Below the pieces are notes generated by a model. The model made no database searches. It was not told the origin of the DNA and was given only the letters and a program-made list of their open reading frames with translations. Both the position numbers and the translations under genes were made by a program. 64,000 nt of DNA, from assembly GCF_020831925.1 (NCBI RefSeq), contig NZ_JAFIFQ010000001.1:62001-126000 (forward strand), written 5' to 3'. Source of the DNA: Alkalimonas sp. Its GTDB lineage: Bacteria; Pseudomonadota; Gammaproteobacteria; Enterobacterales; Alteromonadaceae. Of the stretch, positions 9,358-58,446 are shown one piece after another; position 1 is the stretch's first letter; each line of letters opens with the position of its first letter.

Positions 9358-9384
9358 AGGGGACCTCTTCAGAATTTGTTGCTG

Positions 9385-9998: not shown

Positions 9999-10052
9999 GC
10001 AGACAACGAATGAATTCGCCCGCACTGGGCCATGTACAAGACGGATGAAATA

Positions 10053-13243: not shown

Positions 13244-14322
13244 ATAAAATCCGACAGCACCCACAATGGGGCGTTGCGCTGGCAGTCATTCTGATATCAT
13301 TTTTTTACTGGATGCTGTTGGCGACCGATCGCTATGTTTCAGAAGCCAATATTGTGCTGAAAAGTCCGGAAATATCACCAGCAAGTCTGAACTTTTCATC
13401 GATATTGTCTGGTACTTCCGGTGCTGGTGATCTGCTGCTGTTGCGGGATCATATGTTGTCGGTTGATATGCTGAATGTATTGGAGGAGCGACTGCAAATT
13501 CGCCAGCACTTTGCCAGCAGTGACATTGATCGTTGGTCGCGCCTTAGCCGTGTGGATGCACCCATAGAAAAATTTCACCGCTATATGCTAAAGCGGATTG
13601 ATGTTCACTTTGATGATTACGCCAATGTGCTTCGGCTGAGAGTGCAGGCTTATAATCCTGAAATGGCACAAAAAATTGCGCAAACTCTCTTGCAGGAAGG
13701 TGAGCTGCACATGAATCGTATGGGACAGCGCCTGGCAGAAGAACAAGTTGCTTTTATTGAAGGTCAGGTAGAGGTGCTGGAGCAACGACTTTACCGTGCT
13801 CGTGAGGCGCTGCTGACGTTTCAAAATACCCATGGACTGGTATCACCAACAGGATCGGTAGAAAGCATCATGATGATCGTCGCACAGTTGGAAGCACAAA
13901 AAGCACTGATGGAAGCACAGCGTAAAGCAAGCAGTAGCTTTCAAAGCCCTAACTCGCCAGAGATGCAGCGATTGGACAGCCAAATCCAAGCGTTGAACAC
14001 CCAAATTCAACAAGAGCGAAATAAGCTGGCGACAGCTGATGGGGATGCACTAAATCGTATTTCTGCGGAGTTTGAAACACTGGCCTTGCAGGCGCAATTC
14101 GCACTTGAGCTGTATTCGAACTCCTTATTAATGCTCGAAACGACCCGGGTTGAGGCCGCCCGCAAGCTAAAACAAGTCTCGGTACTGCAATACCCAACGA
14201 TGCCGCAATACTCGGTGGAACCGCGTCGGAGTTATAATTTCGCTGTGGTTTGTTTTTTTGCTATCCTGCTGGCTGCTATTGTGCAATTAACGCGTGCCAT
14301 TATCCGTGACCATTTAGATTAG
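13240..14322 (+). CDS. kpsE: Capsule export inner-membrane protein (PCP family)
   Basis: A 360-residue polysaccharide co-polymerase-like protein linking the KpsMT transporter to KpsD. It has an N-terminal membrane segment (about 12-30), a periplasmic domain with the conserved SPEISPASLNF loop, long coiled-coil helices (about 140-300, rich in Gln/Glu/Ala) and a C-terminal membrane segment (about 333-352). This matches KpsE/CtrB/BexC. The first four bases overlap the end of kpsT. Confidence 0.9.
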   Translation: MNKIRQHPQWGVALAVILISFFYWMLLATDRYVSEANIVLKSPEISPASLNFSSILSGTSGAGDLLLLRDHMLSVDMLNVLEERLQIRQHFASSDIDRWSRLSRVDAPIEKFHRYMLKRIDVHFDDYANVLRLRVQAYNPEMAQKIAQTLLQEGELHMNRMGQRLAEEQVAFIEGQVEVLEQRLYRAREALLTFQNTHGLVSPTGSVESIMMIVAQLEAQKALMEAQRKASSSFQSPNSPEMQRLDSQIQALNTQIQQERNKLATADGDALNRISAEFETLALQAQFALELYSNSLLMLETTRVEAARKLKQVSVLQYPTMPQYSVEPRRSYNFAVVCFFAILLAAIVQLTRAIIRDHLD

Positions 14323-17330: not shown

Positions 17331-18383
17331 ATGAGTGGACGCATTTTGGTAACCGGCGGTGCTGGTTTTATTGGTTCGGCGCTGGTGCGCCATCTGATCA
17401 ACAACACATCTTATCAGGTGTTGAATGTTGATAAACTCACTTATGCCGGTAATCTGGCATCCCTACAATCAATTGCTGCTCATCCACGCTATCAGTTTGT
17501 GCAGGCCGACATTTGCGATCAAGCCCGGATGCAGCAGTTGTTGCAGCAGTTTCAGCCAGACATCATTATGCATCTGGCCGCTGAAAGTCATGTTGATCGC
17601 TCCATTGATGGTCCGGCAGCCTTTATCCAGACCAATATTGTCGGTACCTATACTCTGCTGGAAGCGGCACGAAGCTATTGGCAGGGATTGGAATCAGCCG
17701 CTCAAGCGCGCTTCCGCTTTCACCATATTTCTACCGATGAGGTGTATGGCGATCTATCGCAAAGCGATGCATTCTTTACCGAACAGACGCCGTACGCGCC
17801 CAGTTCACCCTATTCGGCCAGTAAAGCCAGCTCCGATCACCTGGTGCGGGCCTGGCAGCGTACCTATGGTCTGCCAACGCTTATTACCAATTGCTCCAAC
17901 AATTATGGCCCGTACCACTTCCCGGAAAAGCTGATACCGCTCACCATTTTAAATGCACTGGCAGGCAAGCCGTTGCCTGTCTATGGCAATGGCCAGCAAA
18001 TCCGCGACTGGCTCTATGTAGACGACCATGCCAGGGCGCTGCTCTGTGTGGCAACGCAGGGTAAGATTGGGGAAACTTACAACATCGGCGGCCACAACGA
18101 AAAACAGAACATCGAAGTCGTCAGATCCATCTGTACAATTCTGGAAGAATTGGCCCCCATTCAACATTCAAAACTCAACATTCAACACTACGAAAGTTTA
18201 CTAACTTTCGTACAGGATCGCCCCGGCCACGACCAACGTTACGCCATCGATGCCAGCAAGATAGAGCGTGAACTTGGCTGGACACCGCGGGAAACGTTCG
18301 AAAGCGGGTTACGTAAAACCGTGCAATGGTACCTGGCCAACGAAGGCTGGTGGGGGCCTTTAGCACAAAACGGCAGTAACTAG
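17331..18383 (+). CDS. rfbB: dTDP-glucose 4,6-dehydratase
   Basis: The second step of dTDP-L-rhamnose synthesis: dTDP-glucose to dTDP-4-keto-6-deoxyglucose. It is a 350-residue short-chain dehydrogenase/reductase. The NAD motif is [11 protein letters not shown] (about 8-18), the catalytic Thr-Asp-Glu is in ISTDEVYGD, and the YSASKASSD motif holds the catalytic Tyr and Lys. Near residue 275 the protein carries an unusual stretch ([11 protein letters not shown]) before [12 protein letters not shown], encoded by a low-complexity segment at 18159-18186. The gene lies five bases after the GT4 gene and precedes rfbD. Confidence 0.95.
18159..18211 (+). repeat. AT-rich micro-repeat and hairpin inside rfbB
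   Basis: ATTCAACATTCA (18159-18170) and CAACATTCAAC (18176-18186) form a short direct repeat. They are followed by a perfect 9-base inverted repeat, ACGAAAGTT/AACTTTCGT (18190-18198 and 18203-18211), with a 4-base loop. Base composition differs from the surrounding gene, and the frame is kept. Confidence 0.6.
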
Positions 18384-18414
18384 CTCGCATAGCGGGCGGT
18401 AACGTGGACATTGA

Positions 18415-19293
18415 ATGAAACTACTCATTACCGGCAGCTCAGGCCAGGTTGGCACTGAGCTCAAACAACAACTGCTAAGGCAGGCCGAGCTGCTAACACC
18501 AACCCGAGCCGAGCTGGATTTAGCCGATGCATCTGCTGTACAGGCCTATTTAGCGCAGCATCATCCAGCAGTCATTATCAATGCGGCTGCTTATACGGCG
18601 GTCGATTTGGCCGAAACCGAGCAGGCAGCAGCTCTGGCGCTCAATGCCCAGCTACCAGAGTTGCTGTCGCGTTATTGCGCTGCTAGCGGGGCCTATCTGA
18701 TGCATTACTCCACCGATTACGTCTATCCGGGTACCGGCACCACCCCCTGGCAGGAAGACAGTGTCACCGGCCCGCTGAATGTGTATGGTCACAGCAAGTT
18801 GCAAGGTGATCTAGCGGTGCAACAACACTGCCCGACGGCGCTGATTTTTCGTACCAGTTGGGTTTATGCCCGGCAGGGCAAAAATTTTGTGCAGACTATC
18901 TTGCGGCTGGCGAAAGAGAAAACCGAACTGCGTATCGTGGCCGATCAAATCGGCGCTCCTACACCCGCCAGCCTGATTGCCGCCATCAGCCATCAAGCGC
19001 TGTCGCGCTGGCAAGCTGGTACAGCCATCGCCGGTGGCGTCTATCACCTGGCCCCGCGCGGCAGCTGCAGTTGGTACGATTTTGCCAAAGTTATTGTGAG
19101 CCAGGCCATAGCAGAAGGGCAGTCACTGGCACTGTCACCAGAGTCGATTCAGCCCATACCCAGCAGCGATTACCCAACCCCGGCCAGGCGGCCGCTGAAT
19201 TCACGGCTTCATGTGGATAAACTGGAGCAGGCCCTTGGCATTCGCATGCCCGAGTGGCAGGAGGCGTTTCATAACTTGCGAAGCGAGCAGTAA
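18415..19293 (+). CDS. rfbD: dTDP-4-dehydrorhamnose reductase
   Basis: The last step of dTDP-L-rhamnose synthesis, reducing the 4-keto group with NAD(P)H. It has 292 residues. The cofactor motif is GSSGQVGTEL (about 7-16), NAAAYTAVDLAE is the family signature, the catalytic set is STDYVYPG and YGHSKLQGD, and the C-terminal motif RPLNSRL is present. It follows rfbB by 31 bases. Confidence 0.95.
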   Translation: MKLLITGSSGQVGTELKQQLLRQAELLTPTRAELDLADASAVQAYLAQHHPAVIINAAAYTAVDLAETEQAAALALNAQLPELLSRYCAASGAYLMHYSTDYVYPGTGTTPWQEDSVTGPLNVYGHSKLQGDLAVQQHCPTALIFRTSWVYARQGKNFVQTILRLAKEKTELRIVADQIGAPTPASLIAAISHQALSRWQAGTAIAGGVYHLAPRGSCSWYDFAKVIVSQAIAEGQSLALSPESIQPIPSSDYPTPARRPLNSRLHVDKLEQALGIRMPEWQEAFHNLRSEQ

Positions 19294-19377
19294 CCTGCCG
19301 TTTCACGGCGGTCACTAGCATCTTCAGCTCTCAGCAAGTATCATAAAGCCGCACGTCAAACTCAGGGAATGAACGCT

Positions 19378-20553
19378 ATGTCGGAATACAAAATTGCCAT
19401 TGCCGGAACCGGCTATGTAGGCTTATCCAACGCCATGCTACTGGCACAACACCACCAGGTTGTTGCCTTGGATATTCTTCCGGAAAAAGTCGCTTTACTA
19501 AATGACGGTAAGTCACCGATTGAAGACAAAGAGATTACTGAGTTTCTTACCAATAAAGCACTCAATTTTACGGCCACGACCGACAAAAACCAGGCCTATC
19601 AACACGCTGATTTTGTCGTGATTGCCACCCCAACGGACTATGACCCTGAAAATAATTACTTTAATACCAGCAGTGTCGAAGCCGTCATAGCCGACGTGAT
19701 GGCAATTAACCCCAACGCAGTGATGGTTATTAAGTCCACCGTGCCGGTCGGCTATACCGCAGCAACCAAGCAACGACTAAAGCTTGATAATTTACTATTT
19801 TCCCCCGAGTTTCTGCGCGAGGGTAAGGCCTTGTACGATAACTTGTATCCATCCAGAATCATTGTGGGGGAGCGCTCAGGGCGGGCGGAAATTTTTGCGT
19901 CCATGTTACAACAAGGCGCCATTAAACAGGATATTCCGGTACTTTTTACCGACAGCACCGAAGCCGAGGCCATTAAGCTGTTCTCCAATACCTACCTAGC
20001 CATGCGGGTGGCGTTTTTTAATGAGCTGGATTCCTATGCCGAAAGTCATGGCCTTGATAGTCGGCAAATCATTGAAGGGGTAGGGCTGGATCCCCGTATC
20101 GGCAATCATTACAACAACCCCAGTTTTGGCTATGGCGGCTATTGCTTACCTAAAGATACCAAGCAACTGCTGGCCAACTATCAGAATGTACCTAACAACA
20201 TCATTCAAGCCATTGTCGATGCCAATCAAACTCGTAAAGACTTCATTGCCACCTCGATTGTCAATAAGAACCCTAAGGTGGTTGGCATTTACCGCTTAGT
20301 TATGAAGTCAGGCTCCGATAATTTTAGAGCTTCTGCCATTCAGGGTATTATGAAGCGCATTAAAGCCAAAGGCATTGAAGTGGTGGTGTTCGAACCCGAG
20401 TTGAAGGAGTCGCACTTTTTCCGTTCACGGGTGATCAGGGATCTGCAAGAGTTTAAGCAGCTGTCGGATGTCATTGTTGCCAATCGCCGCACCGAAGCAC
20501 TGGCGGATGTAGAAGAGAAAGTCTATACCCGTGACTTGTTTGGCAGTGATTAG
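19378..20553 (+). CDS. ugd: UDP-glucose 6-dehydrogenase
   Basis: Oxidises UDP-glucose to UDP-glucuronate with two NAD+, supplying glucuronic acid for capsule. It has 391 residues. The NAD motif is GTGYVGLS, the middle signature is [11 protein letters not shown], and the catalytic Cys is in [13 protein letters not shown]. The length and the Lys-rich central part match the short E. coli-type Ugd. I chose the ATG at 19378 because AGGGA is nine bases upstream; the ATG at 19369 sits directly on that site. It lies between rfbD and rfbA, so the rhamnose genes are interrupted by it. Confidence 0.95.
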
Positions 20554-20565
20554 CTGGCACTGCCA
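20541..20565 (+). other. Stem-loop around the ugd stop codon
   Basis: TGGCAGTG (20541-20548) pairs exactly with CACTGCCA (20558-20565). The TAG stop (20551-20553) is in the 9-base loop. There is no T-run, so it is not a typical terminator; it may stabilise the mRNA end or attenuate. Confidence 0.5.
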
Positions 20566-20664
20566 GCGCTCACTCTTGGCTAACCGACTTGCTCTTTGTC
20601 CTTAAAAAACTTAAGATGCCCATTCAATTTAGACTGGCATATTGCCTGGGCAGAGGACACAGTT

Positions 20665-21531
20665 TTGCGCAAAGGTATCGTACTGGCAGGAGGCTCTGGT
20701 ACACGCTTGCATCCCATTACGCTTGGGATTTCCAAGCAATTGCTGCCCATTTACGACAAGCCCATGATTTACTATCCGATCTCGGTGCTCATGCTGGCCG
20801 GGATCCGTGATATTTTAATCATAACCACCCCAGACGACCAACCTGGTTTCAAACGACTGCTTGGCAGTGGTGAACAGTTTGGCGTGCGTTTTGAGTACTG
20901 CATCCAGCCCAAACCGGAAGGCTTGGCTCAGGCTTTTATCCTGGCTGAAGACTTTTTACAGCAACAGCCTGTCTGCATGGTGCTGGGTGATAATATTTTC
21001 CATGGTCAAAGTTTCAGTGCACAGTTAAAAGCGGCCAGTTTGCAGCAGCAAGGAGCTACCATTTTTGGCTACCAGGTCAAAAATCCGGAATGCTTTGGTG
21101 TGGTTGAGTTTGATGATGACGGCAAAGTTCTGTCGATTGAAGAAAAACCCAAGCAGCCTAAATCCAATTATGCAGTTACCGGTTTGTATTTTTACGACGA
21201 TAACGTTAGTCAACTGGCCAGGCAGCTCAAACCATCCGAACGTGGTGAGTTGGAAATCACCTGCCTGAACAACCTTTATCTGGAGCAAGGCACCTTGCAG
21301 GTTGAGCGTTTTGGTCGTGGTTTCGCGTGGTTGGATACAGGTACCCACGACAGCCTGCTCGATGCCGCCCATTATGTGCAAACCATCGAGCACCGTCAGG
21401 GGTTAAAAGTGGCTTGTTTGGAAGAAATTGCCTGGCGCCAGGGCTGGGTAGACGATAAACATTTACTTAAACGGGCCCGTGCCTTTGCCAAAACCGGCTA
21501 TGGCGCCTATTTACGCCATTTGGTCGATTAG
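20665..21531 (+). CDS. rfbA: Glucose-1-phosphate thymidylyltransferase
   Basis: The first step of dTDP-rhamnose synthesis: glucose-1-phosphate and dTTP to dTDP-glucose. Starting at the TTG at 20665 gives 288 residues beginning [15 protein letters not shown], the standard family N-terminus and length, with AGAGGAC just upstream. An ATG at 20596 would add 23 residues that do not belong to the family. Motifs seen are [36 protein letters not shown] and [10 protein letters not shown]. Confidence 0.94.
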
Positions 21532-21563
21532 CCCCTATTTCAGGACGAAACCAAGGAATTTGT

Positions 21564-22475
21564 ATGAAAGTCACCAAAGCTGTTATTCCGGTTGCCGGCC
21601 TTGGCACCCGTATGTTGCCTGCCACCAAAGCGATTCCGAAAGAGATGCTGCCGGTGGTGGATAAGCCGCTGATCCAGTACGTGGTGAATGAGTGCATTGC
21701 AGCTGGCATCAAAGAGATTGTGCTGGTGACTCACTCATCCAAAAACTCCATAGAAAACCATTTTGATAAAAGCTTTGAGCTTGAATCCATGCTGGAGAAG
21801 CGGGTTAAGCGTCAGCTGCTCGATGAAGTACAGGCGATATGCCCGAAAGATGTCACCATCATGCATGTTCGCCAGGGTGAAGCCAAGGGTCTGGGCCATG
21901 CGGTACTTTGCGCTTATCCATTAATTGGCGATAACCCCTTTGCCGTAGTATTGCCGGATGTGTTGATTGATCATTACGACTGCAATCCTAAGCAGGATAA
22001 CCTGGCTGAAATGATCAAACTGTTCGAGAGCGATGGTGTGAGCCAGGTGATGGTCGAACCGGTACCGATGGAACAGGTTAGCAGCTATGGGGTAGCCGAT
22101 GTGGAAGGCCATCAGATGCACAGCGGCGAATCGGTAAAAATGACGGCCATTGTTGAAAAGCCGGCGGTGGAAGATGCTCCTTCTAATCTTTCGGTGGTCG
22201 GACGCTATGTGTTCTCTGCTGATCTTTGGGAAGCTTTGCAGTACACGCCGATTGGGGCTGGAGACGAAGTTCAGTTGACGGATGGCATTGCGATCCTTAT
22301 GAAGCAACAACCAGTCAATGCTTACCATATCAAAGGTCGCAGCCATGATTGTGGTAATAAACTGGGCTATATGAAAACCTTTGTGGAGTTCGGTCTGCGT
22401 AGTCAGGTTCTTGGGAAGGATTTCACGGCTGCCATGCATGAACTAATGGTCAAGTACCCGCCACAGAACAACTAA
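21564..22475 (+). CDS. galU: UTP-glucose-1-phosphate uridylyltransferase
   Basis: Makes UDP-glucose, the substrate of the ugd product encoded upstream. It has 303 residues. The nucleotide-binding motif is [15 protein letters not shown], followed by [15 protein letters not shown], the Asp in VLPDVLID, and VEKP. It is placed between rfbA and rfbC, giving one nucleotide-sugar supply block (rfbB, rfbD, ugd, rfbA, galU, rfbC) with short gaps. Confidence 0.95.
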
Positions 22476-22487
22476 GAAAGCGAACGC

Positions 22488-23033
22488 ATGCAGATTACAG
22501 CAACCGCCATCCCAGACGTACTGCTCATCACCCCCAAGGTATTTGCAGATGAACGCGGCTTTTTTTTGGAAAGCTATAACCAACGTCAGTTTGAACAGGC
22601 CATAGGCCGCAACCTTACCTTCGTGCAGGATAATCACTCCAAATCGGGGCGCGGCGTGTTGCGCGGTTTGCATTATCAGATTAAACAGCCACAGGGTAAG
22701 CTGGTACGGGTGGTGCAGGGAGAGGTTTTGGATGTGGCCGTGGATCTGCGTCGTTCATCGCCCACATTCGGTCACTGGGTAAGTGCGCTCTTGACGGCTG
22801 AAAACAAAATGCAAATGTGGGTGCCGGAAGGTTTTGCCCATGGCTTTATTGTGCTCAGTGATACTGCTGAATTTGTTTATAAGGCCACGGATTATTATGC
22901 CCCGGAATTCGAGCGAGCCATTCGCTGGGACGACCCGGAACTGGCCATCGATTGGCAGTATGCCACCACGCCAGCACTGTCTGCTAAAGACTTGCAGGCC
23001 AAAAGCTTTTCTGGTGCTGAGTATTACCCATAA
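22488..23033 (+). CDS. rfbC: dTDP-4-dehydrorhamnose 3,5-epimerase
   Basis: The third step of dTDP-rhamnose synthesis, a cupin-fold enzyme of 181 residues. Motifs are FLESYNQRQF, the catalytic His in RGLHYQ, then GKLVRVVQGEVLDVAVDLR, and the Tyr/Asp region FVYKATDYYAPE. It starts 12 bases after galU and is the last gene before an intrinsic terminator. Confidence 0.95.
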   Translation: MQITATAIPDVLLITPKVFADERGFFLESYNQRQFEQAIGRNLTFVQDNHSKSGRGVLRGLHYQIKQPQGKLVRVVQGEVLDVAVDLRRSSPTFGHWVSALLTAENKMQMWVPEGFAHGFIVLSDTAEFVYKATDYYAPEFERAIRWDDPELAIDWQYATTPALSAKDLQAKSFSGAEYYP

Positions 23034-23083
23034 AGCAAAAATCAGTCAGTATCTTTAACAGGGCTATGTTACAATCCGATGTC

Positions 23084-23106
23084 AACCGGAATTCATTCCG
23101 GTTTTT
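23084..23106 (+). terminator. Intrinsic terminator after rfbC
   Basis: AACCGGAA (23084-23091) and TTCCGGTT (23096-23103) form an 8-base stem with loop TTCA, and the T-run continues to 23106. It separates the nucleotide-sugar block from the glycerol-phosphate genes downstream. Confidence 0.8.
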
Positions 23107-23150
23107 CAATTGTCAGTACGAGCACTCGGATCGCAGTCAGGAACTCAGGC

Positions 23151-23606
23151 ATGAAAAACATCATTACTTACGGCACCTTCGACCTTTTTCATATTGGCCA
23201 CTTGAATCTGCTGAAACGTCTTTCCGAAATGGGCCAGTTAACGGTTGCCGTATCAACCGACGAGTTTAATGAAGGCAAAGGGAAAAAAACCATTATCCCC
23301 TTTGACCAGCGCATCGAAATTGTTCGTGGTTGTCGCTATGTCCACCAAGCGATCCCAGAGTGCAGCTGGGAGCAAAAAATTAAAGATATTCAAACCTATG
23401 ATATCGATACTTTTGTGATAGGCGATGATTGGCAAGGCAAGTTCGACTTTTTAAAAGAGTACTGCGAAGTGGTGTACTTGCCACGTACTGAAGGCATTTC
23501 CACCACTCAGTTGAAAAAAGCATTAAGTGCTTTTTCCAGCATCAACAAAGAAGAATTTATGCGCGCTTTTGAAATTCTGGAAATGCTAAAAGCCGACTTA
23601 AATTAA
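23151..23606 (+). CDS. tagD: Glycerol-3-phosphate cytidylyltransferase-like protein (TagD type)
   Basis: Activates glycerol-3-phosphate as CDP-glycerol. It has 151 residues from the ATG at 23151 (MKNIITYGTFDLFHIGHL). The CTP-binding HxGH motif is HIGH (about 14-17) and the second signature is EGISTTQLKK. The length and the motifs GTFDLFHIGH, VSTDEFN and VIGDDW match TagD closely. An upstream ATG at 23079 would add 24 unrelated residues encoded across the terminator. The next gene carries a CDP-glycerol glycerophosphotransferase domain, which supports the assignment. Glycerol-phosphate from GpsA (57406-58419) could feed it. Confidence 0.9.
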   Translation: MKNIITYGTFDLFHIGHLNLLKRLSEMGQLTVAVSTDEFNEGKGKKTIIPFDQRIEIVRGCRYVHQAIPECSWEQKIKDIQTYDIDTFVIGDDWQGKFDFLKEYCEVVYLPRTEGISTTQLKKALSAFSSINKEEFMRAFEILEMLKADLN

Positions 23607-23626: not shown

Positions 23627-26600
23627 ATGCGCGTGATCAAACAACTGCTAAAAAAACAACAACAAAAAAAGAAGTTTCAGCAGCAGCTTGCGCTAATTCG
23701 ACAATCGGATTATTTCGATGCAAGTTTTTATTTGGAGCAATATCCGGATGTAGCTGCTGCAGGCCTTGATGCGGCGGAACATTTTCTGAAATATGGAGCC
23801 AACGAGCTACGTCAACCTAGTCCCCGTTTTGATACTGCTTTCTACTTACAACAATACCCGGATGTTGCCACCAGTGCACTAAACCCATTGATCCACTTCT
23901 TGCGTTTTGGCAGTCGCGAAGGGCGCCAACCGAATCAAGACCAAAGCCAGCGAACATCTTTAGCAGAAGTCGAGCAGCAACTGCAATTGCAGATTAGCAT
24001 GGATCCGAACAACCCGGATCTGTTCGATGAGTTGGCTCTTGTATTACAGCGGCAAGGAAAGTATTGGCAAGAGGTGCAAGCGCTGCAGGCTTCATTAAAA
24101 CTGGACAGCCAGAGTGCACTGCGTCATTACCGTTTGGGGCAGGCGCTGGATGTCATGCAGAAGTTTCACGAGTCTGCCGATGCCTACCAACAAGCGACTG
24201 AGCTTGATCCTTCCCAGCCAGAGTGGTTTTTCCGGCTTGGTTTTGCATTGCAACGCAGTCAAGCGGATACCCTTACTGTGCAGCAGGCATTTCAAAAAGC
24301 CATGGAGCTGGATCAGACATTGCAAAGCCATCAGTTTGGCATTGGCGCATTTCACCAGCAGCAGGCCAACTGGCAAGAAGCGATTGCCTGCTATCAAGAC
24401 CGCTTAGCACAGCGTCCTAAAGACGCGGAGCTTCTTTACCGCTTGGGTTATGCTTATGACCGTTTGTACAACTGGGCCAAAGCAGAAGATTATTACTGCC
24501 AAGCGTTGGCCAAAATGGATAACGTCGACTGGTATTTCCGGCTTGGTTTTGTACTGGAGCGTCAAAAGAAATTCTCACAAGCCGCCGTTGCCTATCAATT
24601 TGCGGCCAAAAACCGCCAACGACATACACCCTACTGGCATTACCGTTGTGGTTACGTTTTATTGCAAGCCGGTGAGTATCAAGCGGCATGTCAGGCATTT
24701 CTGAATGTATCCGTAGCTCCTGAACTGTTCCAAAGTGCTGAGTTTGTGGCCGATGAAGCAGCTATGGCGCTGCATGATAGATTGCTGACATTGCAGAAAA
24801 CCCATTGGCAAAACGAACAAAAGCGCTTACAAAAAGTGCTGAAAAAAGACTGCACACTGGCTGATGACTGGTATGCACTGGGCAATGCTTACGAGTATCA
24901 ACAGGCCTGGTCGGATGCAAGAGATGCGTATCAGCAAGCACTGAAAAGGTGTAATCAGTACAATCCAAACTGGTACTTCCGCTTAGGCTTTGTGAGGTAT
25001 AAGCTGGGTTTTTTCCAGCAAGCCGCGGATGCGTTTTCGCACAGCCATCCGGTGCGGCAGGCGCATGGTGTTTCTGAAAAGCCGTTGAATGGAAGTGCAG
25101 CACTGCAACTACGGTATGCGGAATATTATGAGACTCTGCCACTGCAATCGAACACCATACTCTTTGAAAGCTTCAGTGGTAAGTCGATCTCTTGCAATCC
25201 TTACGCCTTATTTCTTGAAATGCAGGCCGATCCACGCTACCAGTCCTGGGAGTTCATCTGGGTCATTGATTCCATCGACAAAGTCCCATTGAACTTACGA
25301 AACAAGCTCAATGTCAGCTTTATTGAGCGGGGCAGTGATCGCTATTTAAGAGCCATCGCCGAAAGCGCATACCTGGTGAACAACAGTGGATTTCCACCAT
25401 ACTATGTTCGTAAAGAAGGCCAGCGCTATCTGGCTACCTGGCATGGAACTCCGCTGAAAACTTTGGGCAAAGAGCAAAAATACAAATTTTTTGATCACAA
25501 GCGCACTCAACGCAATTTTTTGCAATCTACCCATATCATCAGTCCAAATAAACACACGACAGACATTTTGTTCGATAGCTATGACATTCGTCGTATTTAC
25601 CAGGGAAAATTGGCTGAAACCGGTTACCCCAGGATTGACCTGACACTTAACCAAAATCCGCAAAGTGTGCTTGAGCTCAAAAAAGCTTTGGGTATTTTGG
25701 ATGAACGTCCAATCGTATTATACGCCCCGACCTGGCGTGGTACTTTGCAAGAAGTCGAGTTTGATACCCGCAGACTCGAACAAGACATCGCCAGGATGGC
25801 CTCATTAGGTGGCCATGTGCTGTTCCGGGGGCACAGCTTGTTGGAGCAGTGCCTTGCGGAAGTCAAACTCGGCTGTACCGTGGTACCGGCGCACATTGAT
25901 AGTAATGCTCTGCTATCCGTTGTCGATATTCTAATTACAGATTACTCCAGCATCTTCTTTGATTTTATCCCTCTCAAACGGCCGATTATCTATTACGCCT
26001 ACGACTTGGAAGAGTATCAGACGGAGCGAGGTCTGTACTTCGAGATGACACAGATGCCAGGGCGGGTTTGCAGTACCATGGATGAGGTTCAGGCTGAGTT
26101 GATGGCTTGTCTCAGTGCCCAAACAACAGGGTTGCATGGTGCAGAAGCGGCGATGCAACGCTTTAATCATCACGACGATGGCAAGGCCAGTGCTCGTGTG
26201 TTGCAGCTATTTTTAGACGATGACAACAGCTATGTTGTTGCACCAAATACCGACCAGTCCATTGGGAATATGCTCATTTTTCCGGGTGGTATGATACCCA
26301 ATGGTATCACCACCTCATTTATTAATTTAATTCGGGCCCTCTCATCTGAAAAGATACATCCGGTCATTATTTTTTCGCCAGGAAACATTGAGTTCAATGC
26401 GGATTGCCGCGAGCAGTTCGATCGTATTGGCTATCAGCATGACTTTGTGCCTCGTTTTGGCAATGTGTTGATGACACTGGAAGAACGAGCTATCCGTTCT
26501 TATGCGGATCAGCGACGCTATCACGACATTTCACCAGAGCAACACGAGGTACTTGACCGGATGTATGCGCGTGAGTACTTGCGGTTACTCGGGCATGCAC

Positions 26601-27454
26601 GAATTGATCGGATTGTGCACTTTTCTGGTTATGACGAATTCTGGACCAAGGTGTTTGCCAGTGTTGCTAATACGCAAAAAAGCATCTACTTGCACAATGA
26701 TCTTTATGCCGAGCACACCGAGCGTTTTCCTTTTTTGCAGGTCAACTTCAGCTTGTACCATAAGTATGATCAACTGGTGTCAGTCTCTGAGCTTACGTCT
26801 GAACTCAATAAGAACAATTTGGCACCACGCTATCAGTTGCCCGATGATCGCTTTATTTTTTGCAACAACTTGCAAAATCCGGCTGATGTGCAAAGCCGTG
26901 CGGCGGAGCCTTTGCTGGCAGCGGATCAGGAATTATTCCAACAGAACAAAACAACCTTTATCACCATGGGGCGTTTGTCGATAGAAAAAGATCACAGCAA
27001 GTTGATTCGTGCTTTTGCTCAGCTGCAGAAAGCCAATCCGTCAACCCAGCTGTTGATCCTGGGAGATGGTCCGTTAAAAGTACAACTGAATCAGTTGGTA
27101 CAAAGTCTGAATCTCAGCCATGCCGTGCATTTGCTTGGGCAGCGCACGAATCCATTCCCACTCTTGCAGGCGGCGGATTGCTTTGTGCTGTCATCCAATC
27201 ACGAAGGTCAGCCAATGGTACTTTTTGAGGCCATGATCCTGAAAAAACCTATCATTTCTACCGATATTGTTGGCTCGCGTAGTGCGATTGAAGGCCGATC
27301 AGGTTGTCTGGTAGAGAACTCGGTGCAAGGGCTTACGGTTGCCATGCAGCGTTTCTGTGTCGGTCAGTTAGAAACGTCCGAGTATGATATTAGTAGCTAT
27401 CAACGTGAATCGTTGGCCATGTTTTATGAGAAAGTCTGTCAACTAAAGGGATAA
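23627..27454 (+). CDS. Multidomain TagF-like glycerophosphotransferase fused to a GT4 glycosyltransferase
   Basis: A 1275-residue protein likely to build a glycerol-phosphate-containing capsule at the cytoplasmic membrane face. Domains in order: a basic Gln/Lys-rich start (1-25); two copies of a 36-38 residue repeat (FYLEQYPDVAAAGL, 30-67; FYLQQYPDVATSAL, 68-103); tetratricopeptide-like repeats (about 125-475, recurring W-Y/F-FRLGF); a CDP-glycerol glycerophosphotransferase domain (about 508-865: WHGTPLKTLG 605-614, YAPTWRG 699-705, TDYSSIFFDF 771-780); and a GT4 domain (about 880-1275: GRLSIEKDH, SNHEGQPMVLFEAM). No membrane segment is seen. TagF-like polymerases fused to glycosyltransferases are known in Gram-negative capsules (Actinobacillus, Neisseria). 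This repeat-plus-TPR form is not one I recognise. Confidence 0.85.
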   Translation: MRVIKQLLKKQQQKKKFQQQLALIRQSDYFDASFYLEQYPDVAAAGLDAAEHFLKYGANELRQPSPRFDTAFYLQQYPDVATSALNPLIHFLRFGSREGRQPNQDQSQRTSLAEVEQQLQLQISMDPNNPDLFDELALVLQRQGKYWQEVQALQASLKLDSQSALRHYRLGQALDVMQKFHESADAYQQATELDPSQPEWFFRLGFALQRSQADTLTVQQAFQKAMELDQTLQSHQFGIGAFHQQQANWQEAIACYQDRLAQRPKDAELLYRLGYAYDRLYNWAKAEDYYCQALAKMDNVDWYFRLGFVLERQKKFSQAAVAYQFAAKNRQRHTPYWHYRCGYVLLQAGEYQAACQAFLNVSVAPELFQSAEFVADEAAMALHDRLLTLQKTHWQNEQKRLQKVLKKDCTLADDWYALGNAYEYQQAWSDARDAYQQALKRCNQYNPNWYFRLGFVRYKLGFFQQAADAFSHSHPVRQAHGVSEKPLNGSAALQLRYAEYYETLPLQSNTILFESFSGKSISCNPYALFLEMQADPRYQSWEFIWVIDSIDKVPLNLRNKLNVSFIERGSDRYLRAIAESAYLVNNSGFPPYYVRKEGQRYLATWHGTPLKTLGKEQKYKFFDHKRTQRNFLQSTHIISPNKHTTDILFDSYDIRRIYQGKLAETGYPRIDLTLNQNPQSVLELKKALGILDERPIVLYAPTWRGTLQEVEFDTRRLEQDIARMASLGGHVLFRGHSLLEQCLAEVKLGCTVVPAHIDSNALLSVVDILITDYSSIFFDFIPLKRPIIYYAYDLEEYQTERGLYFEMTQMPGRVCSTMDEVQAELMACLSAQTTGLHGAEAAMQRFNHHDDGKASARVLQLFLDDDNSYVVAPNTDQSIGNMLIFPGGMIPNGITTSFINLIRALSSEKIHPVIIFSPGNIEFNADCREQFDRIGYQHDFVPRFGNVLMTLEERAIRSYADQRRYHDISPEQHEVLDRMYAREYLRLLGHARIDRIVHFSGYDEFWTKVFASVANTQKSIYLHNDLYAEHTERFPFLQVNFSLYHKYDQLVSVSELTSELNKNNLAPRYQLPDDRFIFCNNLQNPADVQSRAAEPLLAADQELFQQNKTTFITMGRLSIEKDHSKLIRAFAQLQKANPSTQLLILGDGPLKVQLNQLVQSLNLSHAVHLLGQRTNPFPLLQAADCFVLSSNHEGQPMVLFEAMILKKPIISTDIVGSRSAIEGRSGCLVENSVQGLTVAMQRFCVGQLETSEYDISSYQRESLAMFYEKVCQLKG
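23714..23935 (+). repeat. Two tandem WYL..PDV-type protein repeats
   Basis: Two adjacent coding units of about 36-38 residues share the pattern F-D-x-x-F-Y-L-x-Q-Y-P-D-V-A, then P/A-x-x-H-F-L-x-x-G, then E-x-R-x-P. The same unit occurs at 58609-58713, 59994-60098 and 61443-61547. Confidence 0.85.
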
Positions 27455-27468
27455 TAAAGGGTTTTTAC

Positions 27469-30400
27469 ATGGATAAACAAGTGGCGCCAGAACAAGGTTG
27501 TTCAGGTTACTTTGGCGCAAGCTCATTCGATTGTGCCAAAGTAAAGATCGGCGATAGAGTAAGCTCCCTGACATTGTGTTTGCCCAGTGATAAGCCACGC
27601 TATCTGTCACTGGATGGGATCGAATTTTATGCTGCAGGAGAGAAAGTAGCATTTAGCCAGGCAAGTTACCAACTTGAACAGAGCTCGGTGGATCGTGAGC
27701 GCGGCCCGGAGTTTTTGTTACAGAAAAAGCGAATTCATACGCAGCGCGAGCTGGCTCCATTCTGGCGCATTCGCTTTGTGCGTCCGGTTTATCTCAGTGA
27801 AGTCTGGTTGTTCAACCGGCATGATGCGTTTGCCAAAAGAAATGCCGCGCTTTGTGTCCATTACGAGACAGAAACGGGTGAGCGGATTCCAGTACGATTT
27901 ACGCCGCAACAATCGCTGGCTGCTATTGTCCGTCAAAGCTGGCTTGCTTCATCCAAACCGCAGCGCGAAGACGCTTTGTGGCAGTTTATTCAGCACAGTA
28001 AGACTGCCGGTTGCAGTGGTCTGGATTACCAGACGCATTACTGCGGATCGCGATATTTTGGCCATAGCCAACAAACCGCTGCCCATATACAACTGTCGAT
28101 GGACGTTGTGTCCATTGAGCTGACATTTGATGATGAAGCGCCACGCTTTTTAAGTTTGGATGGCATAGAGTTGTGGCAAGACAGTCAGTTGTATAAACCC
28201 GAGCCAGACAACCAGCGAGTCAGTCAAAGCAGTGTGCATAAAAAGCGAGGCCCGGAACGTCTGCTTAAGCAAAAACGTATTCACACCATGCAGGATGTCC
28301 GGCCTTACTGGAAGCTGGAGTTTGCCAGCCCAACCAGACTTGATGCCATCCGGCTTATCAACCGTAACGATACCTACGCACGACGTAATAGTGGCCTGGT
28401 TTGTCACATCCAGGACGCACAAGGTCAACTCCTGGTGTACAAAACGGATATTGCCCCTTCGTTTTGCGAGCACTACTTTCAGCAACAGTCGACACTCGCA
28501 CCACAGCTTGCTCTGGCGTTGATGGCGCATGCTATCCGAAGCGATATCGTGGATATTTTTGCGCTGGATTGGTGTGCGCTGCTAAATTATCTGGATATAT
28601 GGAACGATGCTGAACCTTTGCATCCGGATGAAGCCATCATTTTGGCGGCCTACGCTATAACTGCAAAAAAGCATGGGCAAAGCCGTTTAAAGGTAATGGC
28701 AGCCAGGCTCCAAACCACCAAAGCCATCGAGTTGCTGGAGTCTGCTGTCAATCAGGTATCTGAAGCGCTGGGCCTCGGGCATTATGGTGTGAGCAAGCAT
28801 GGCTTGGTCAGAGCAAATTTGATCGCAGACTCAGAGCGCTACCTTGCATCGATAGAGGCTTTTTTAGCTACCTTAATCACCCTGGGGTACCAAGGGTTTC
28901 TTTGCTATGGCACCTTGCTTGGTGCGCGCCGGGAAAATGCCTTTTTGGCCCACGATGATGATGTCGATCTGGCGGTGATGCTCAATGCGCAGGATGAAGC
29001 GGCGATGCAGGCCGAGTTTGCTACCTTATTGGAGGCTTTGCAGCAGCATGGCTATCGTGTGCACCACAACAGCCGTTTTAGCAATGTCCATGTAACGAAG
29101 AAAGGCTTGAAACGGCTGGATATTTTTCCATGCTGGCAGGACGAACGCGGTGTTCACTTATTGATGGATAAGATGAAAAGCAGAAGTTTGCCAGCCGACA
29201 TCATCCTGCCTCTGGCCCAGATAACATTTCAGCACTATCAATTTCCTTGCCCGGCGCAAACCGATGCTTTTTTAGTTGAGCGTTATGGGGTTGGCTGGCA
29301 GCAGCCAGATAAATTTCATGAATGGCCATGGCCTTTGCAAGATACCGAAAAACCTAACCAGGTATCAAAAGTGCCGGAAACCCTTGCCGCGCTTATCCAA
29401 CCGGAAGCCTTGTGCACCAAGCTTGCTGAACAGCTTACAAATCATGGGCTGGACATCAAGGCATGGTGGAAGCATCCATTTCTTTGTGTACTGGATTGCC
29501 AGCTGGGTGATGTCTGCCTGGCCTTCGAGCTGCACAGTGCACTACCAGGTTGGCTGCTCTTGGTGGCAGTAAATCGAGAAACCAACCAGCTGGAAGCCTT
29601 GTTCCCTAAAACTGCGCAGTGTCCCACCGGTCTTGGTTATTGGCAGGCGCTATCAGCTCCGCAGCCATGGCTTGCTGAGCTGGTAACATGCATCCTGACT
29701 GCGCAGGAACGCTACAAAACACAGCGCTATGTCGCTTTTATTGCGGAGGGCTATGACGACGAGCACCTGAAACAACCAGCGCAGTGGGCCAGACAGGGCG
29801 GAGCAGGGTATGCTGTTGGCAATACACTGGCAGCCATTGAGCAGACGGTACGCCTCGGTTGCAAGGTGCTGGAGTTGGATGTACAGCTTAGCCAGGACGG
29901 TGAACTGGTCATCCACGATGAAGCCTGGCTGGACTACCGACACAGCCGCACAGTTGAAGGTGACTGGTTAACGCCTGCAGACGCTGTGGCAATTGGCGAT
30001 CTAAGTTGGCAAGCATTACAGCACTATCAGCTAGGTGAGCCAAATCCAGCCAGCGACTACAAAGCAAGCCGTCGCAGGCTGATGGCTGTGCCGGGACAAA
30101 GGATCCCAAGCTTGCGGCAAGTGATCCAACTGCTGCAGTCGACAAGCTCCGATACCACATTGCTGCTTGATTTGAAAACGGATGTTTTGGCAAAAGAGCC
30201 TGAGCAGTGGCAACCATTGGCCAGACAACTGCTGAAAGTATTGCACGAAGAAGCCTTTCTTTCCCGTGTTTCGTTCACATCTCTTGACTGGAGAGCATTA
30301 GGTTATATCAAGTCCGCTCACCCGGATGCCGTTGTCTGGTTTGCAACCCATCCTTTTGGCTGGTTAGAGGCGTCTTATAGTGAACATCAAGCCCTGCCTG

Positions 30401-32532
30401 TCGATACGCGCTTGCTAGCAGATCTGCGGCAAAGCTGGCAAAGTGGCAAGGCGGCCTGGTATGCAGGGCATCAACCTCAAAGCTTGCAAGACATCCCCAA
30501 GGCCATCCGTCAAGCGGGGGGCGATGGCTGGCTTTGCCATTACAGCGATCTGCTAGAACATCAGGTTCACCTGGTGACAGACGGACTACCCTTGGCTGTC
30601 TGGGCAGATAATCTTCGTGATCCTCAGCGGATCAGTACTTTAAAGCGAGCTGGCATCACCGCACTGTGCCATGACTATCCTGCTTCTCATTTTATTAGGT
30701 TAAGCCCAGAAGGGCGCGCCTGGGTACAAGAGGGCAACCTTTTACTAAAGAGCCATCAATGGCAACGCCTGAAAGAACATTATTTGCCTTGGTACCAAGC
30801 GGCTGTGCCTTGCGCTTTTGAAGTGTATTATCAGCTTGCTATCGCCTTGCGCAAACTGGACGAGCAGGATGCTTCGGAGCAGGTTTTGCTTGCTGGCTTA
30901 CAGGCATTTCCAAATCATCATAACCTCTACATTGAATTGGCGGTGTTGGAGAATCAGCGCGAGAATTGGTCCAAAGCCCTGGTGTTCTGGCAGCAAGCCT
31001 TTCACATTGGTGGTGCATTTTCGCTGCACAGTTATCAGCGGTGCGCTCGAGCGATCGTCATGCATGCGTTGTCCGCTCCACCTGAAGACTGGCACCGAGC
31101 GCTGCTAGCACGCGCTTTGCCTGTGGCGATAGAGCACCAGGCTTTTATGAGTTGCTACTTGCTGTTCGATGTACTCAGCCTGGCTCAGTCGGGATCCCTG
31201 ACCACAGCCTGCCAGCGACTTTCGAATTTAGCTGAAACCAAGATCCTGGAACGCAATGCGCTGCCGTACCTTTATGTACTCAGGGGCTGGCAATTGCAAT
31301 TAAACAAGCTTGAGCTGGAACGCTGGATGCAGACCGATCCAGTCAAACTCAATGCGTATCTTTGCAGTGACAAGCCAACACGCCTGATGCCACAGGATAT
31401 TGCCGATCTGTGTTTTATGTTGCAGCAACGACAAAACACGGACTCGGCAGGCCAGGCAAGCTGGTTGACAACCATGTTGCAGGCATTGCAGCCTTTACAA
31501 GCATTGTCACTGCATACCAGCGGCAATCTCTGCAAGAGAGACGCCTGGCAACACCCTCAAATCCAGGCGGTAGCCCAACAGCTGACAGCCTTAGTAAACC
31601 TGTCCGATATGCGTGCGGATTTGCTCCCCTCCAACGGTTGGAAAACACTCGCCAACATTTTTTTGTTGGTGTTCGATATTCGCTGCTACAGCCTGGCCCG
31701 GGAGCTTGCTTTCAAAGCCTTGAGGTTTGAGCAAGGCGTTGCTTCCGATGAGCCCTGCTATGCCGATACTGTTATCCCGGCCTCTTTGCCATTAGAGGCA
31801 CTACCTGGTACCCAACAAAAGCGACTGTTGCCGCTACTTGCAGTGCATGGCAAGCATGCTGAATTTGCTGCTGCATTTGCGGACTACCAACAGCAGGATT
31901 TTGCCAGCTATTTGCATGGCAAACGTGTTGCGGTGGTTGGTCCGGTGAATGTGGGCTTGCAACAAGATGCTGAAATTGATGCATTTGATGTTGTCATCCG
32001 GCTCAATTACCGTGGTGTAGAGCCTTTAACCGGCAATGGCGCTGGCAGCAAAACACAGGTCAGTTATTACGCCAACGATGTGATAAGGGGCGAAGGGAGC
32101 AGCGAGAGTATTCGCCTGGCCATGCAACAACTCGATTGGGTAGTGTTTGATACTGAAAGCAATCAGGATAAGGAATTTACAGTAGCAAACTGTCGCTTTA
32201 ACTTCCCCTACCGGGATTTTAATCCATTGTCCAAAGGGGTGGTCAATGCCATTCAAAAGGTCATTTTGGATCTTTGTTTGTACCAGCCAGCCTGCATTAA
32301 AGTTTTCAACGCCAACCTGTGGTTAAGCCAATCCGAGATCCCCGGGTACCATGTCGGATATGCCCGTAATACGGTGTCCCGATTTATTTGGCATGATCCA
32401 GCGGCAAACTTTCTTTTTATGCAAAACGCATGGCAAAATGGCATCATAGAAGCCGATCCTGTGCTGAGCCAAATCCTCTCCATGTCGCTGAACGACTACC
32501 TTCGTCAACTTGACCACGCAATACAAGGGTAA
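27469..32532 (+). CDS. Giant multidomain surface-glycan protein: discoidin-like x2, LicD-like, GDPD-like, TPR-like, GT29-like
   Basis: A 1687-residue protein. Two related discoidin-type (F5/8C-like) segments at about 28-146 and 212-326 share LSLDGIE, RGPE, K-x-R-I-H-T and NR-D. A LicD-like phosphotransferase domain spans about 455-620 (YGTLLGARRENAFLAHDDDVD, 480-500). A glycerophosphodiesterase-like domain spans about 755-1075 (NTLAAIEQ, LELDV, LVIHDE). It lacks the catalytic HRG, which is replaced by an AEG stretch. A helical repeat region follows (about 1085-1470). A GT29 sialyltransferase-like domain (1485-1687) has AVVGPVNVG, AEIDAFDVVIRLN and GSKT, resembling sialylmotif L. It has no signal peptide. 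The start lies 14 bases after the TagF-like gene, so both belong to one operon. Each domain call is motif-based; the overall role is inferred to be phosphodiester decoration of the capsule. Confidence 0.78.
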   Translation: MDKQVAPEQGCSGYFGASSFDCAKVKIGDRVSSLTLCLPSDKPRYLSLDGIEFYAAGEKVAFSQASYQLEQSSVDRERGPEFLLQKKRIHTQRELAPFWRIRFVRPVYLSEVWLFNRHDAFAKRNAALCVHYETETGERIPVRFTPQQSLAAIVRQSWLASSKPQREDALWQFIQHSKTAGCSGLDYQTHYCGSRYFGHSQQTAAHIQLSMDVVSIELTFDDEAPRFLSLDGIELWQDSQLYKPEPDNQRVSQSSVHKKRGPERLLKQKRIHTMQDVRPYWKLEFASPTRLDAIRLINRNDTYARRNSGLVCHIQDAQGQLLVYKTDIAPSFCEHYFQQQSTLAPQLALALMAHAIRSDIVDIFALDWCALLNYLDIWNDAEPLHPDEAIILAAYAITAKKHGQSRLKVMAARLQTTKAIELLESAVNQVSEALGLGHYGVSKHGLVRANLIADSERYLASIEAFLATLITLGYQGFLCYGTLLGARRENAFLAHDDDVDLAVMLNAQDEAAMQAEFATLLEALQQHGYRVHHNSRFSNVHVTKKGLKRLDIFPCWQDERGVHLLMDKMKSRSLPADIILPLAQITFQHYQFPCPAQTDAFLVERYGVGWQQPDKFHEWPWPLQDTEKPNQVSKVPETLAALIQPEALCTKLAEQLTNHGLDIKAWWKHPFLCVLDCQLGDVCLAFELHSALPGWLLLVAVNRETNQLEALFPKTAQCPTGLGYWQALSAPQPWLAELVTCILTAQERYKTQRYVAFIAEGYDDEHLKQPAQWARQGGAGYAVGNTLAAIEQTVRLGCKVLELDVQLSQDGELVIHDEAWLDYRHSRTVEGDWLTPADAVAIGDLSWQALQHYQLGEPNPASDYKASRRRLMAVPGQRIPSLRQVIQLLQSTSSDTTLLLDLKTDVLAKEPEQWQPLARQLLKVLHEEAFLSRVSFTSLDWRALGYIKSAHPDAVVWFATHPFGWLEASYSEHQALPVDTRLLADLRQSWQSGKAAWYAGHQPQSLQDIPKAIRQAGGDGWLCHYSDLLEHQVHLVTDGLPLAVWADNLRDPQRISTLKRAGITALCHDYPASHFIRLSPEGRAWVQEGNLLLKSHQWQRLKEHYLPWYQAAVPCAFEVYYQLAIALRKLDEQDASEQVLLAGLQAFPNHHNLYIELAVLENQRENWSKALVFWQQAFHIGGAFSLHSYQRCARAIVMHALSAPPEDWHRALLARALPVAIEHQAFMSCYLLFDVLSLAQSGSLTTACQRLSNLAETKILERNALPYLYVLRGWQLQLNKLELERWMQTDPVKLNAYLCSDKPTRLMPQDIADLCFMLQQRQNTDSAGQASWLTTMLQALQPLQALSLHTSGNLCKRDAWQHPQIQAVAQQLTALVNLSDMRADLLPSNGWKTLANIFLLVFDIRCYSLARELAFKALRFEQGVASDEPCYADTVIPASLPLEALPGTQQKRLLPLLAVHGKHAEFAAAFADYQQQDFASYLHGKRVAVVGPVNVGLQQDAEIDAFDVVIRLNYRGVEPLTGNGAGSKTQVSYYANDVIRGEGSSESIRLAMQQLDWVVFDTESNQDKEFTVANCRFNFPYRDFNPLSKGVVNAIQKVILDLCLYQPACIKVFNANLWLSQSEIPGYHVGYARNTVSRFIWHDPAANFLFMQNAWQNGIIEADPVLSQILSMSLNDYLRQLDHAIQG

Positions 32533-32534: not shown

Positions 32535-33362
32535 ATGAATAAAGTACGTATTTTAGGCGATCATTCCAACCTGCACTGTGGCTGCAAAGCGGTCATGGCG
32601 TATTTGCACCAGCTGTTGGATAGTCGTTATCAACGGGTCGGTGACGACGAAGACTATGACATTCTTTTGGTCAATGGCGAAGGCTCCATGCACGACAACG
32701 CCAAAGATCACAAAACCAAGCTCAATGCCATCAAAGCGGCCCAGCAAGCAGGCAAGCAGGCATTCCTGATCAATAGCGTCTGGCAGAACAACAACAAAAG
32801 TTACGACAAAGTGCTGCAACAAATTCCCCATATTGTGGTCAGAGAAGCTGCCAGTCAGCGCGATTTGCGCTTGAATCACGGCATTGAAAGCACGGTAAGG
32901 CTGGATTTATCCTACTCAGCTTTGGTCGACGACACCGCCAAAGTCACCGACTTTGCCGGAGCCGAGCTGATCACCGATTTTTATTCGAAAGATTTTGGTG
33001 GCTGGGTCAAGTTCACTGCCGGAGGAGCAGGCAAAGCCCGTTCGCCTTACCTTGATATGAAAAAGTTCAGCTGGAGTGAGCTGGTGCATTCGTTGCAAAC
33101 CGCCAGCCTGCTGGTGACCGGTCGGCATCATGCCGTTTTTGCTGCCTGCAAAGCCAGGCTGCCTTTTGTAGCGCTGGAGAGCAATACGCACAAAATTTCT
33201 GGTTTTGTCAGCATGTCGAACTTACCGATCCCGATTTGCGACAGTCCCAGACAGCTGAATAACGCCATTAAATGGGCCAAAGAGAACCCGGCTGTGTACC
33301 AGGAATTTTTTGACTTCCTTGATCAGCAGCCAAGGTTTACACTGGCAGATATTGGCCTGTAA
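32535..33362 (+). CDS. Polysaccharide pyruvyl transferase-like protein
   Basis: A 275-residue protein of the pyruvyl transferase superfamily (CsaB/WcaK/ExoV-like), which transfers pyruvate from phosphoenolpyruvate to form ketals on sugars. Evidence: LLVNGEGSMHD (about 44-54) corresponds to the conserved G-G-x-x-x-x-D region, then the repeated alpha/beta pattern (QAFLINSVWQNN, VVREAASQRDL), and near the C-terminus TGRHHAVFAACKARLPFVAL with the conserved R-H-H/H-x-x-x-x-A. It is short compared with CsaB (about 360). It begins two bases after the giant gene and is the last gene before the type II secretion cluster. Confidence 0.78.
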   Translation: MNKVRILGDHSNLHCGCKAVMAYLHQLLDSRYQRVGDDEDYDILLVNGEGSMHDNAKDHKTKLNAIKAAQQAGKQAFLINSVWQNNNKSYDKVLQQIPHIVVREAASQRDLRLNHGIESTVRLDLSYSALVDDTAKVTDFAGAELITDFYSKDFGGWVKFTAGGAGKARSPYLDMKKFSWSELVHSLQTASLLVTGRHHAVFAACKARLPFVALESNTHKISGFVSMSNLPIPICDSPRQLNNAIKWAKENPAVYQEFFDFLDQQPRFTLADIGL

Positions 33363-43425: not shown

Positions 43426-43434
43426 CATGATAAT
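43406..43434 (+). promoter_or_regulatory. Strong sigma-70 promoter of the S-layer-type gene
   Basis: A perfect -35 TTGACA (43406-43411), a 17-base spacer and -10 GATAAT (43429-43434). The predicted transcript starts near 43441, giving a leader of about 85 bases before the ATG at 43526. Confidence 0.75.
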
Positions 43435-51524: not shown

Positions 51525-51587
51525 CCTTTCATTTCTGCTTGTATAAATCATTTAAGCAAGTCGTCCGCAATGCATTCAGGAGTTTAC

Positions 51588-58419: not shown

Positions 58420-58446
58420 CGCTGGCTTGAAGACATGGATTAGTTG

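Follow-up and report, generated by a model that had tools for sequence, protein, structure and literature searches.

A single open reading frame at 27469-32532 (+) of a 64,000-nucleotide stretch of Alkalimonas sp. DNA (assembly GCF_020831925.1, contig NZ_JAFIFQ010000001.1, positions 62,001 to 126,000; hereafter the window, in whose numbering positions are given) encodes a 1687-residue protein that unites two lectin-like modules, a LicD-like domain, a relative of GDPD and a relative of the GT29 glycosyltransferases in one chain. Bacterial GT29, LicD and TagF capsule enzymes are already known, and what is new is the way they are assembled here. The gene lies in a capsule locus, and we propose, with belief and doubt in about equal measure, that its product may act as a multi-enzyme in making a teichoic-acid-like capsule that depends on an ABC transporter.

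The reading frame opens with ATG and runs for 1687 codons with no stop within, and the G+C content at the first codon position exceeds that at the second in all 14 of its 120-codon blocks. A chance frame was rejected, since the remaining two frames of the plus strand carry 69 and 78 stops across the same 1686 codons. Phage origin was rejected as well, the C-terminal 210 residues having no tblastn match in the phage collection, as was plasmid origin, because a search with the full-length protein gave no more than partial GDPD (six) or LicD (two) matches in eight plasmid records, none covering 80%.

Domains of the 1687-residue protein

An earlier note on this DNA had proposed LicD, GDPD and GT29 relationships for three segments of the protein, and profile searches, with fold searches for LicD and GT29, recovered all three. 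The C-terminal domain (residues 1475-1687; 31891..32529, +) is GT29-related by profile and by predicted fold. The window sequence alone gives no match to PF00777. With a profile of nine sequences (the window's and eight others), GT29 sialyltransferases are the best eight of nine PDB matches, headed by ST6Gal1 (E 2.8e-5). PF00777 itself is found in seven of the eight other proteins (E 3.3e-5 to 0.05; none in L024), and within the set the protein of genome G580 is the only one to surpass the Pfam GT29 cut-off (23.9 vs 23 bits).

The AlphaFold2 model of this domain has a mean predicted local distance difference test score (pLDDT) of 81.6 and a predicted template modelling score of 0.84. All 22 Foldseek rows at E <=1e-3 are GT29 chains, and the model aligns to ST8SiaIII with Z 12.3 and a root-mean-square deviation (rmsd) of 3.6 over 184 residues; an HPPK (Z 9.5) is not far below, and SteA matches at Z 9.3. 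The letters AVVG, EID, DVVIRLN and GSKT, read earlier as a pattern like sialylmotif L, are indeed present at residues 1488-1529. One histidine, H1642 in the window, is invariant in nine of nine aligned sequences. Counted back from the aligned ends, on the assumption that these are ungapped, it falls on the catalytic histidines of ST8SiaIII, ST3Gal1 and ST6Gal1, which we take to be His354, His319 and His370, and it is the presumed catalytic residue here. No cysteine is kept throughout the nine sequences. This agrees with what PMC5811610 says of bacterial GT29. The Alkalimonas domain resembles those bacterial GT29-like sialyltransferases as a proteobacterial GT29-related domain, and differs from them in terminating a putative capsule multi-enzyme.

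The LicD/FKRP-like domain occupies residues 443-625 (28795..29343, +). It matches PF04991 at E 1.7e-8 (35.3 bits vs a cut-off of 22.6), and its model aligns to FKRP with Z 16.1 and rmsd 3.5 over 167 residues. The metal motifs, DDDVD at 496 and LDIF at 550, are intact. Fold and motifs thus agree with the FKRP/LicD family, from which the window protein differs in having lectin-like domains ahead of LicD. The attachment of a phospho-group, suggested previously for this protein, is plausible via this domain. About 125 residues with no Pfam match (~630-755; 29356..29733, +) separate it from the GDPD homologue.

The N-terminal pair (domain 1, residues ~10-140, 27496..27888, +; domain 2, residues ~190-325, 28036..28443, +) is an internal duplication with 36% identity (E 3e-33). 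These two segments had been noted as discoidin-like; that there are two related segments holds, and they are better placed as tandem F-type-lectin-like domains on the FBP32 profile match and the fucose motif. On the window sequence alone the discoidin-type Pfam F5/8 model scores E 0.022, under its cut-off, and the F5/8 models exceed the cut-off in one of five lectin-LicD relatives and not in the window protein. A PDB search with the single window sequence reaches FBP32 at E 0.0086. The profile of six sequences (the window's and those of the five relatives) gives seven PDB matches at E <=1, six of F-type-lectin type plus FKRP: FBP32 at 1.8e-10, five other entries of the F-type-lectin kind at 3.2e-5 to 1.4e-4, and FKRP at 1.5e-6.

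Both copies carry the fucose-site motif H-X26-R-X-D-X4-R, as H90-X26-R117-X-D119-X4-R124 and H272-X26-R299-X-D301-X4-R306. At least one such motif arose in 322 of 20000 shuffles of the 1687-residue protein, and two motifs in 2. The X26 spacing equals that counted in the FBP32 alignment, and the spacing published for F-type lectins (PMC5712786) is X24. H272, R299 and R306 are invariant across the six aligned rows (window included), and three of the five relatives have the strict motif, while L021 and L022b lack the Asp. The window pair therefore resembles FBP32 and the fucolectins in its H-X26-R-X-D-X4-[RK] motif and tandem arrangement. It may differ from them in the cation site, where by eye LSLDGIE, present in both copies, falls short of the full motif h2DGx, and the model is poor in this region. 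A fold search of the N-terminal model returned one row spanning 192-321 (6eon, Z 8.2), in a poorly modelled region, and is hardly informative for residues 1-440, as matches to LicD take up the list.

The GDPD homologue (residues ~770-1075; 29776..30693, +) matches PF03009 over residues 777-1072 (E 8.9e-15, 55.9 bits vs a cut-off of 23.6). The active-site motif is given as HR...EN...EXD...HD in PMC4926365. At these positions the window protein has RQ, GN, ELD, and an HD that lies one residue out of register unless a gap is allowed: gap-free alignment with the closest relative puts Asp in place of the second His, whereas the phmmer alignment with 2pz0 introduces a one-residue gap and brings the window HD under the catalytic HD. 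Consequently, the one unambiguous loss in the window protein is that of HR. In Alkalimonas amylolytica the same positions read GQ, QN, EIS and HQ, so that the Asp of E-x-D is lost as well. With the HR dyad missing in both proteins, the earlier idea that this domain trims a phosphodiester is not supported, and from its residues the domain is probably non-catalytic, a homologue rather than an active GDPD. An improbable alternative is that it is still a working phosphodiesterase that trims or proof-reads a glycerol-phosphate chain. The retained E-x-D and the gapped register of HD in the window copy would suit that alternative, as would the homologue in genome G363, which retains HR, EN, ELD and HH; the changes of HR and EN in both Alkalimonas proteins, the further loss in A. 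amylolytica and the gap-free alignment speak against it.

A TPR-like stretch (residues ~1090-1470; 30736..31878, +) connects the GDPD homologue to the GT29-like domain. Its matches to TPR_14 and TPR_17 are weak and under the cut-offs, and it aligns to the TPR part of the A. amylolytica homologue.

The surrounding capsule locus

The genes of the locus lie from 10032 to 33362, those with window coordinates below being on the plus strand. First comes a polysaccharide export protein (10032..11777; PF02563), followed by KpsM-, KpsT- and KpsE-like exporter genes named by position and family (11799..14322; PF01061, PF00005, and TIGR01010 at 5.5e-83, below cut-off). Next is a Capsule_synth protein (14336..16120; PF05159, 1.8e-45), which its single module suggests is KpsS-like; another Capsule_synth gene, which gives repeated matches and is on that ground KpsC-like, lies just beyond the window (G000:C134:128114-129847). 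Family matches then identify RmlB, RmlD, Ugd, RmlA, GalU and RmlC (17331..23033), for the supply of dTDP-rhamnose and UDP-glucuronate, and the locus has one GT4 gene too. A TagD-like glycerol-3-phosphate cytidylyltransferase (23079..23606; TIGR01518, 1.6e-46, 157.4 bits, slightly below the cut-off of 165.4) precedes a 1275-residue TagF-like polymerase homologue (23627..27454; PF04464, 1.9e-85) with the order TPR, CDP-glycerol phosphotransferase, GT4. The 1687-residue protein, encoded next, is followed by a polysaccharide pyruvyl transferase-like protein (32535..33362; PF04230, 3e-7), which occupies the same place in A. amylolytica. As judged from these family matches, this is an ABC-type capsule locus with a TagF-like polymerase.

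The polymerase aligns to the PDB entry for Cps3D at 6e-236, residues 419-1273 on 295-1142 of 1149. TagF-like polymerases were reported in 2018 (PMC5974469). One of the closest known systems is that of Cps3/Cps7 of Actinobacillus pleuropneumoniae (CpsA-CpsC-CpsD), which shares with the Alkalimonas locus a Cps3D homologue over 855 residues, a TagD-like gene, a LicD-family domain and TPR parts. A 2024 account (PMC11666461) places CpsC of the Cps3/7 systems in the LicD family and describes it as a polyol-phosphate polymerase. The Alkalimonas LicD domain differs in sharing its chain with lectin-like, GDPD-like and GT29-like domains; the main text of that account has LicD once and GT29 nowhere.

Downstream of the capsule locus, type IV pilus-type genes begin at 33402. 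We presume these to be MSHA genes. A Slr4-type S-layer protein (43427-45022; PF19526, 4.5e-50) is encoded between the pilus genes and a second sugar-gene cluster. Beyond the pilus genes the window also holds a GDPD paralogue that stands alone and keeps HR, EN, E-x-D and HHD (51570..52529, +) and a stand-alone LicD paralogue that matches the LicD domain (58444..59970, +); in A. amylolytica a similar GDPD and LicD lie on the contig that carries its GT29-like gene.

Neighbouring CMP-sugar genes and the donor

Genes of the CMP-sugar-synthetase family CTP_transf_3 often accompany the GT29-like genes of other genomes. Such a gene lies <=9 kb from six of the eight other GT29-like genes, compared with 2 of 87 GT4 controls from the same genomes (Fisher p 8.7e-7), a control that corrects partly, as the loci are few and many GT4 genes need not be in surface-glycan clusters. 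The script gave five of six typed places, to which Salinicola (adjacent gene) and Opitutus (negative) were added by hand; four control matches <15 kb from any of the six typed places were removed, which changed the control from 5/91 to 2/87.

The accompanying gene sets are diverse. In G471 (L040:8594-11602) CTP_transf_3 is fused to an RraA-like part, in G363 (L041:4591-11421) it stands with HpcH/HpaI and HMGL-like enzymes and an APH-like protein, and in Salinicola (L038:5229-9177) a CTP_transf_3-HAD fusion is followed by DAHP synthase, in each case beside the GT29-like gene. The CTP_transf_3 matches of these three are partial, at 47-66 bits, all above cut-off. These sets may make unusual ulosonic acids. 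In G580 and G672, NeuB and CTP_transf_3 lie near the GT29-like gene in clusters that by eye are of pseudaminic-acid type; in G672 there are two NeuB-family stretches (L043:13071-13793 and 9246-10277), one with internal stops. In Psychromonas CTP_transf_3 is 6.4 kb away.

The earlier note had observed that no CMP-sialic acid genes are in the window. This is true of the window, which has no NeuB-family or CTP_transf_3 gene; whole-genome searches located both outside it. PseB, C, F, G and I score over their cut-offs on contig C2, and a CTP_transf_3 gene, KdsB-like by eye, is on the same contig as the capsule gene. The only NeuB-family gene of the genome (95% complete) is above cut-off as PseI and under cut-off as NeuB, and the genome of G363 has no NeuB-family match, which makes a nonulosonate donor unlikely there. 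On these two grounds we judged sialic acid unlikely as the donor, which bears out the previous suggestion that the donor may differ. A true sialyltransferase using CMP-Neu5Ac, as GT29 fold and motif L would permit, is thus very improbable. From the gene content, the donor is likely a CMP-ulosonic acid, in this genome Kdo or pseudaminic acid, without a choice between them. A parallel comes from plants: for the GT29 enzyme RCKT1 of rhamnogalacturonan II, PMC11288761 reports evidence for a CMP-Kdo transferase, so that here too the donor proposed for a GT29 is a CMP-ulosonate and not sialic acid. RCKT1 is a plant enzyme, likened to the window domain by description.

A different and unlikely account of the donor is that the GT29-like domain uses a non-CMP nucleotide sugar (such as UDP-glucuronate, UDP-glucose or dTDP-rhamnose) and resembles GT29 in fold only. 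The capsule locus encodes the supply of all three sugars and no CTP_transf_3 gene, the glutamate of motif VS is missing in all nine aligned sequences (see below), and a plant GT29 is named GALT29A in PMC11288761. Against this account are the frequency of CTP_transf_3 near the relatives relative to the controls and the retention of the histidine and the motif L residues.

Proposed mechanism, relatives and meaning

The analysis shows the homologies, the motifs, the missing HR dyad, the make-up of the locus and the neighbour association of the GT29-like family; all activities, donor and acceptor, cell location and step order are inferred. In the proposed multi-enzyme the domains would have the following roles: (I) the tandem F-type-lectin-like domains would hold the growing chain or the acceptor, (II) the LicD domain would take glycerol phosphate, or a different polyol phosphate, from a CDP donor and transfer it, by analogy with the LicD-family CpsC of Actinobacillus, (III) the GDPD-like barrel would be a non-catalytic remnant that possibly still binds a phosphodiester, (IV) the TPR stretch would dock the product of the adjacent gene, the TagF-like polymerase, and (V) the GT29-like domain would add a CMP-activated 3-deoxy-2-ulosonic acid, here Kdo or pseudaminic acid, as linker, branch or cap. 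This proposal draws on the Cps3D-like polymerase, the TagD-like and export genes, the LicD motifs and fold, the GT29 profile and fold, the CTP_transf_3 association and RCKT1. It also draws on the KdsB-like, Capsule_synth and Pse genes of the genome, and on PF04464 proteins found in the stretches around the GT29-like genes of A. amylolytica, G363, G471, G580 and Salinicola (five of eight, the scan having taken in these five).

Several observations weigh against the multi-enzyme proposal. Motif VS presumably takes the form HX4E in GT29. Its glutamate is absent in nine of nine GT29-like sequences (seven Asn, one Ser, one Gln), and for this reason we call the domain GT29-related rather than a GT29 member. 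The fold scores of the listed GT29 entries (Z 10.8-12.3) are nearly equalled by GT42 CstI (10.6), and residues 1-330 are modelled in blocks with pLDDT 23-85, at low confidence. The nearest CTP_transf_3 gene is 62.8 kb from the gene in the window genome and 64.6 kb away in A. amylolytica, so the neighbour association is missing precisely at the finding. Nor does Opitutus have such a gene within 9 kb; the sole CTP_transf_3 match of its genome, at 1467629, lies beyond the 1108718-base contig of its GT29-like L037. Finally, two of the six associated loci resemble pseudaminic acid operons and the other four do not, so the donor of the family is not one sugar.

The distribution of the architecture bears on whether the chain matters at all. 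The same architecture was sought in other genomes, as the earlier note had advised: a whole-protein search of 40 genomes gave any match in seven (own included), and the full chain in one of 40, the own genome alone. Other GT29-like matches sit in open frames of <=888 residues. GT29-like matches occur in 2/295 genomes of the order, 5/369 of the class and 5/398 of the phylum, samples that overlap and each count the own genome; the domain is accordingly rare. A partial GT29-like match in a genome of the same class (G840:C15:42536-42712, L047; positions 6-61, E 6.2e-8, 274-residue frame) was excluded from the alignment and the counts.

In A. amylolytica, GDPD-TPR and TPR-GT29 parts match residues 769-1204 and 1208-1686 of the window protein. 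They lie in two overlapping frames (L019:9979-12716), flanked by the genes for the polymerase and the PF04230 protein, and we dropped the idea of neat separate genes on account of this overlap; the sequence would fit a frame-shifted gene or a split one. The nearest LicD match there is at 479576, ~28 kb from the GT29-like gene. In G363 (L041) an 887-residue protein adjoins a 1255-residue TagF-GT4 protein; it has GDPD, TPR and GT29 in the identical order beside a homologous polymerase, and differs in its kept GDPD residues and in having no lectin or LicD part, and the genome has no Capsule_synth match. Stand-alone LicD genes with a lectin-like front occur in G016 (two), G007 and G020 (two). The description of the architecture as very unusual is thus right for the full chain and needs qualifying for its parts, since a GDPD-TPR-GT29 chain is present in another gammaproteobacterium, lectin-like LicD genes stand alone within the same family, and GT29-like sequences from bacteria had been described by 2018 (PMC5811610).

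There is a small chance that the long chain arose by accidental fusion or is in decay, with parts of little importance, and that its neighbours are the true capsule enzymes. Its restriction to one genome in 40, the overlapping frames without LicD alongside in A. amylolytica and the degenerated GDPD speak for this reading. An open frame of 1687 codons with intact LicD motifs, both lectin motifs and the GT29 histidine argues against it, as does the fact that in both Alkalimonas genomes the gene is placed between those for the polymerase and the PF04230 protein.

A broader reading goes further than the multi-enzyme proposal and is tentative, with doubt clearly outweighing belief. According to it, the GT29-like clade would consist of surface-glycan transferases for non-sialic CMP-ulosonic acids, each supplied by a separate pathway (a DAHP-synthase-like one in Salinicola, an RraA-like one in G471, an HpcH/HMGL-like one in G363 and, by eye, one of pseudaminic-acid type in each of G580 and G672). 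The Alkalimonas protein would be a machine in which one chain does the priming, holding and capping of a teichoic-acid-like capsule. In the literature searched we recognised no description of the joined architecture or of a link to diverse CMP-ulosonate gene sets, and a search on Alkalimonas and capsule returned only work on arsenic in Lake Van.

In sum, parts that are separate elsewhere, the lectin-like LicD genes and the GDPD-TPR-GT29 gene, are merged in a single Alkalimonas chain. If the reading given here is right, bacterial machines for teichoic-acid-like capsules would contain relatives of the GT29 enzymes of animals and plants, whose donors are not necessarily sialic acid, and the gene sets beside GT29-like genes would be pointers to the possible synthesis of unusual CMP-ulosonic acids.

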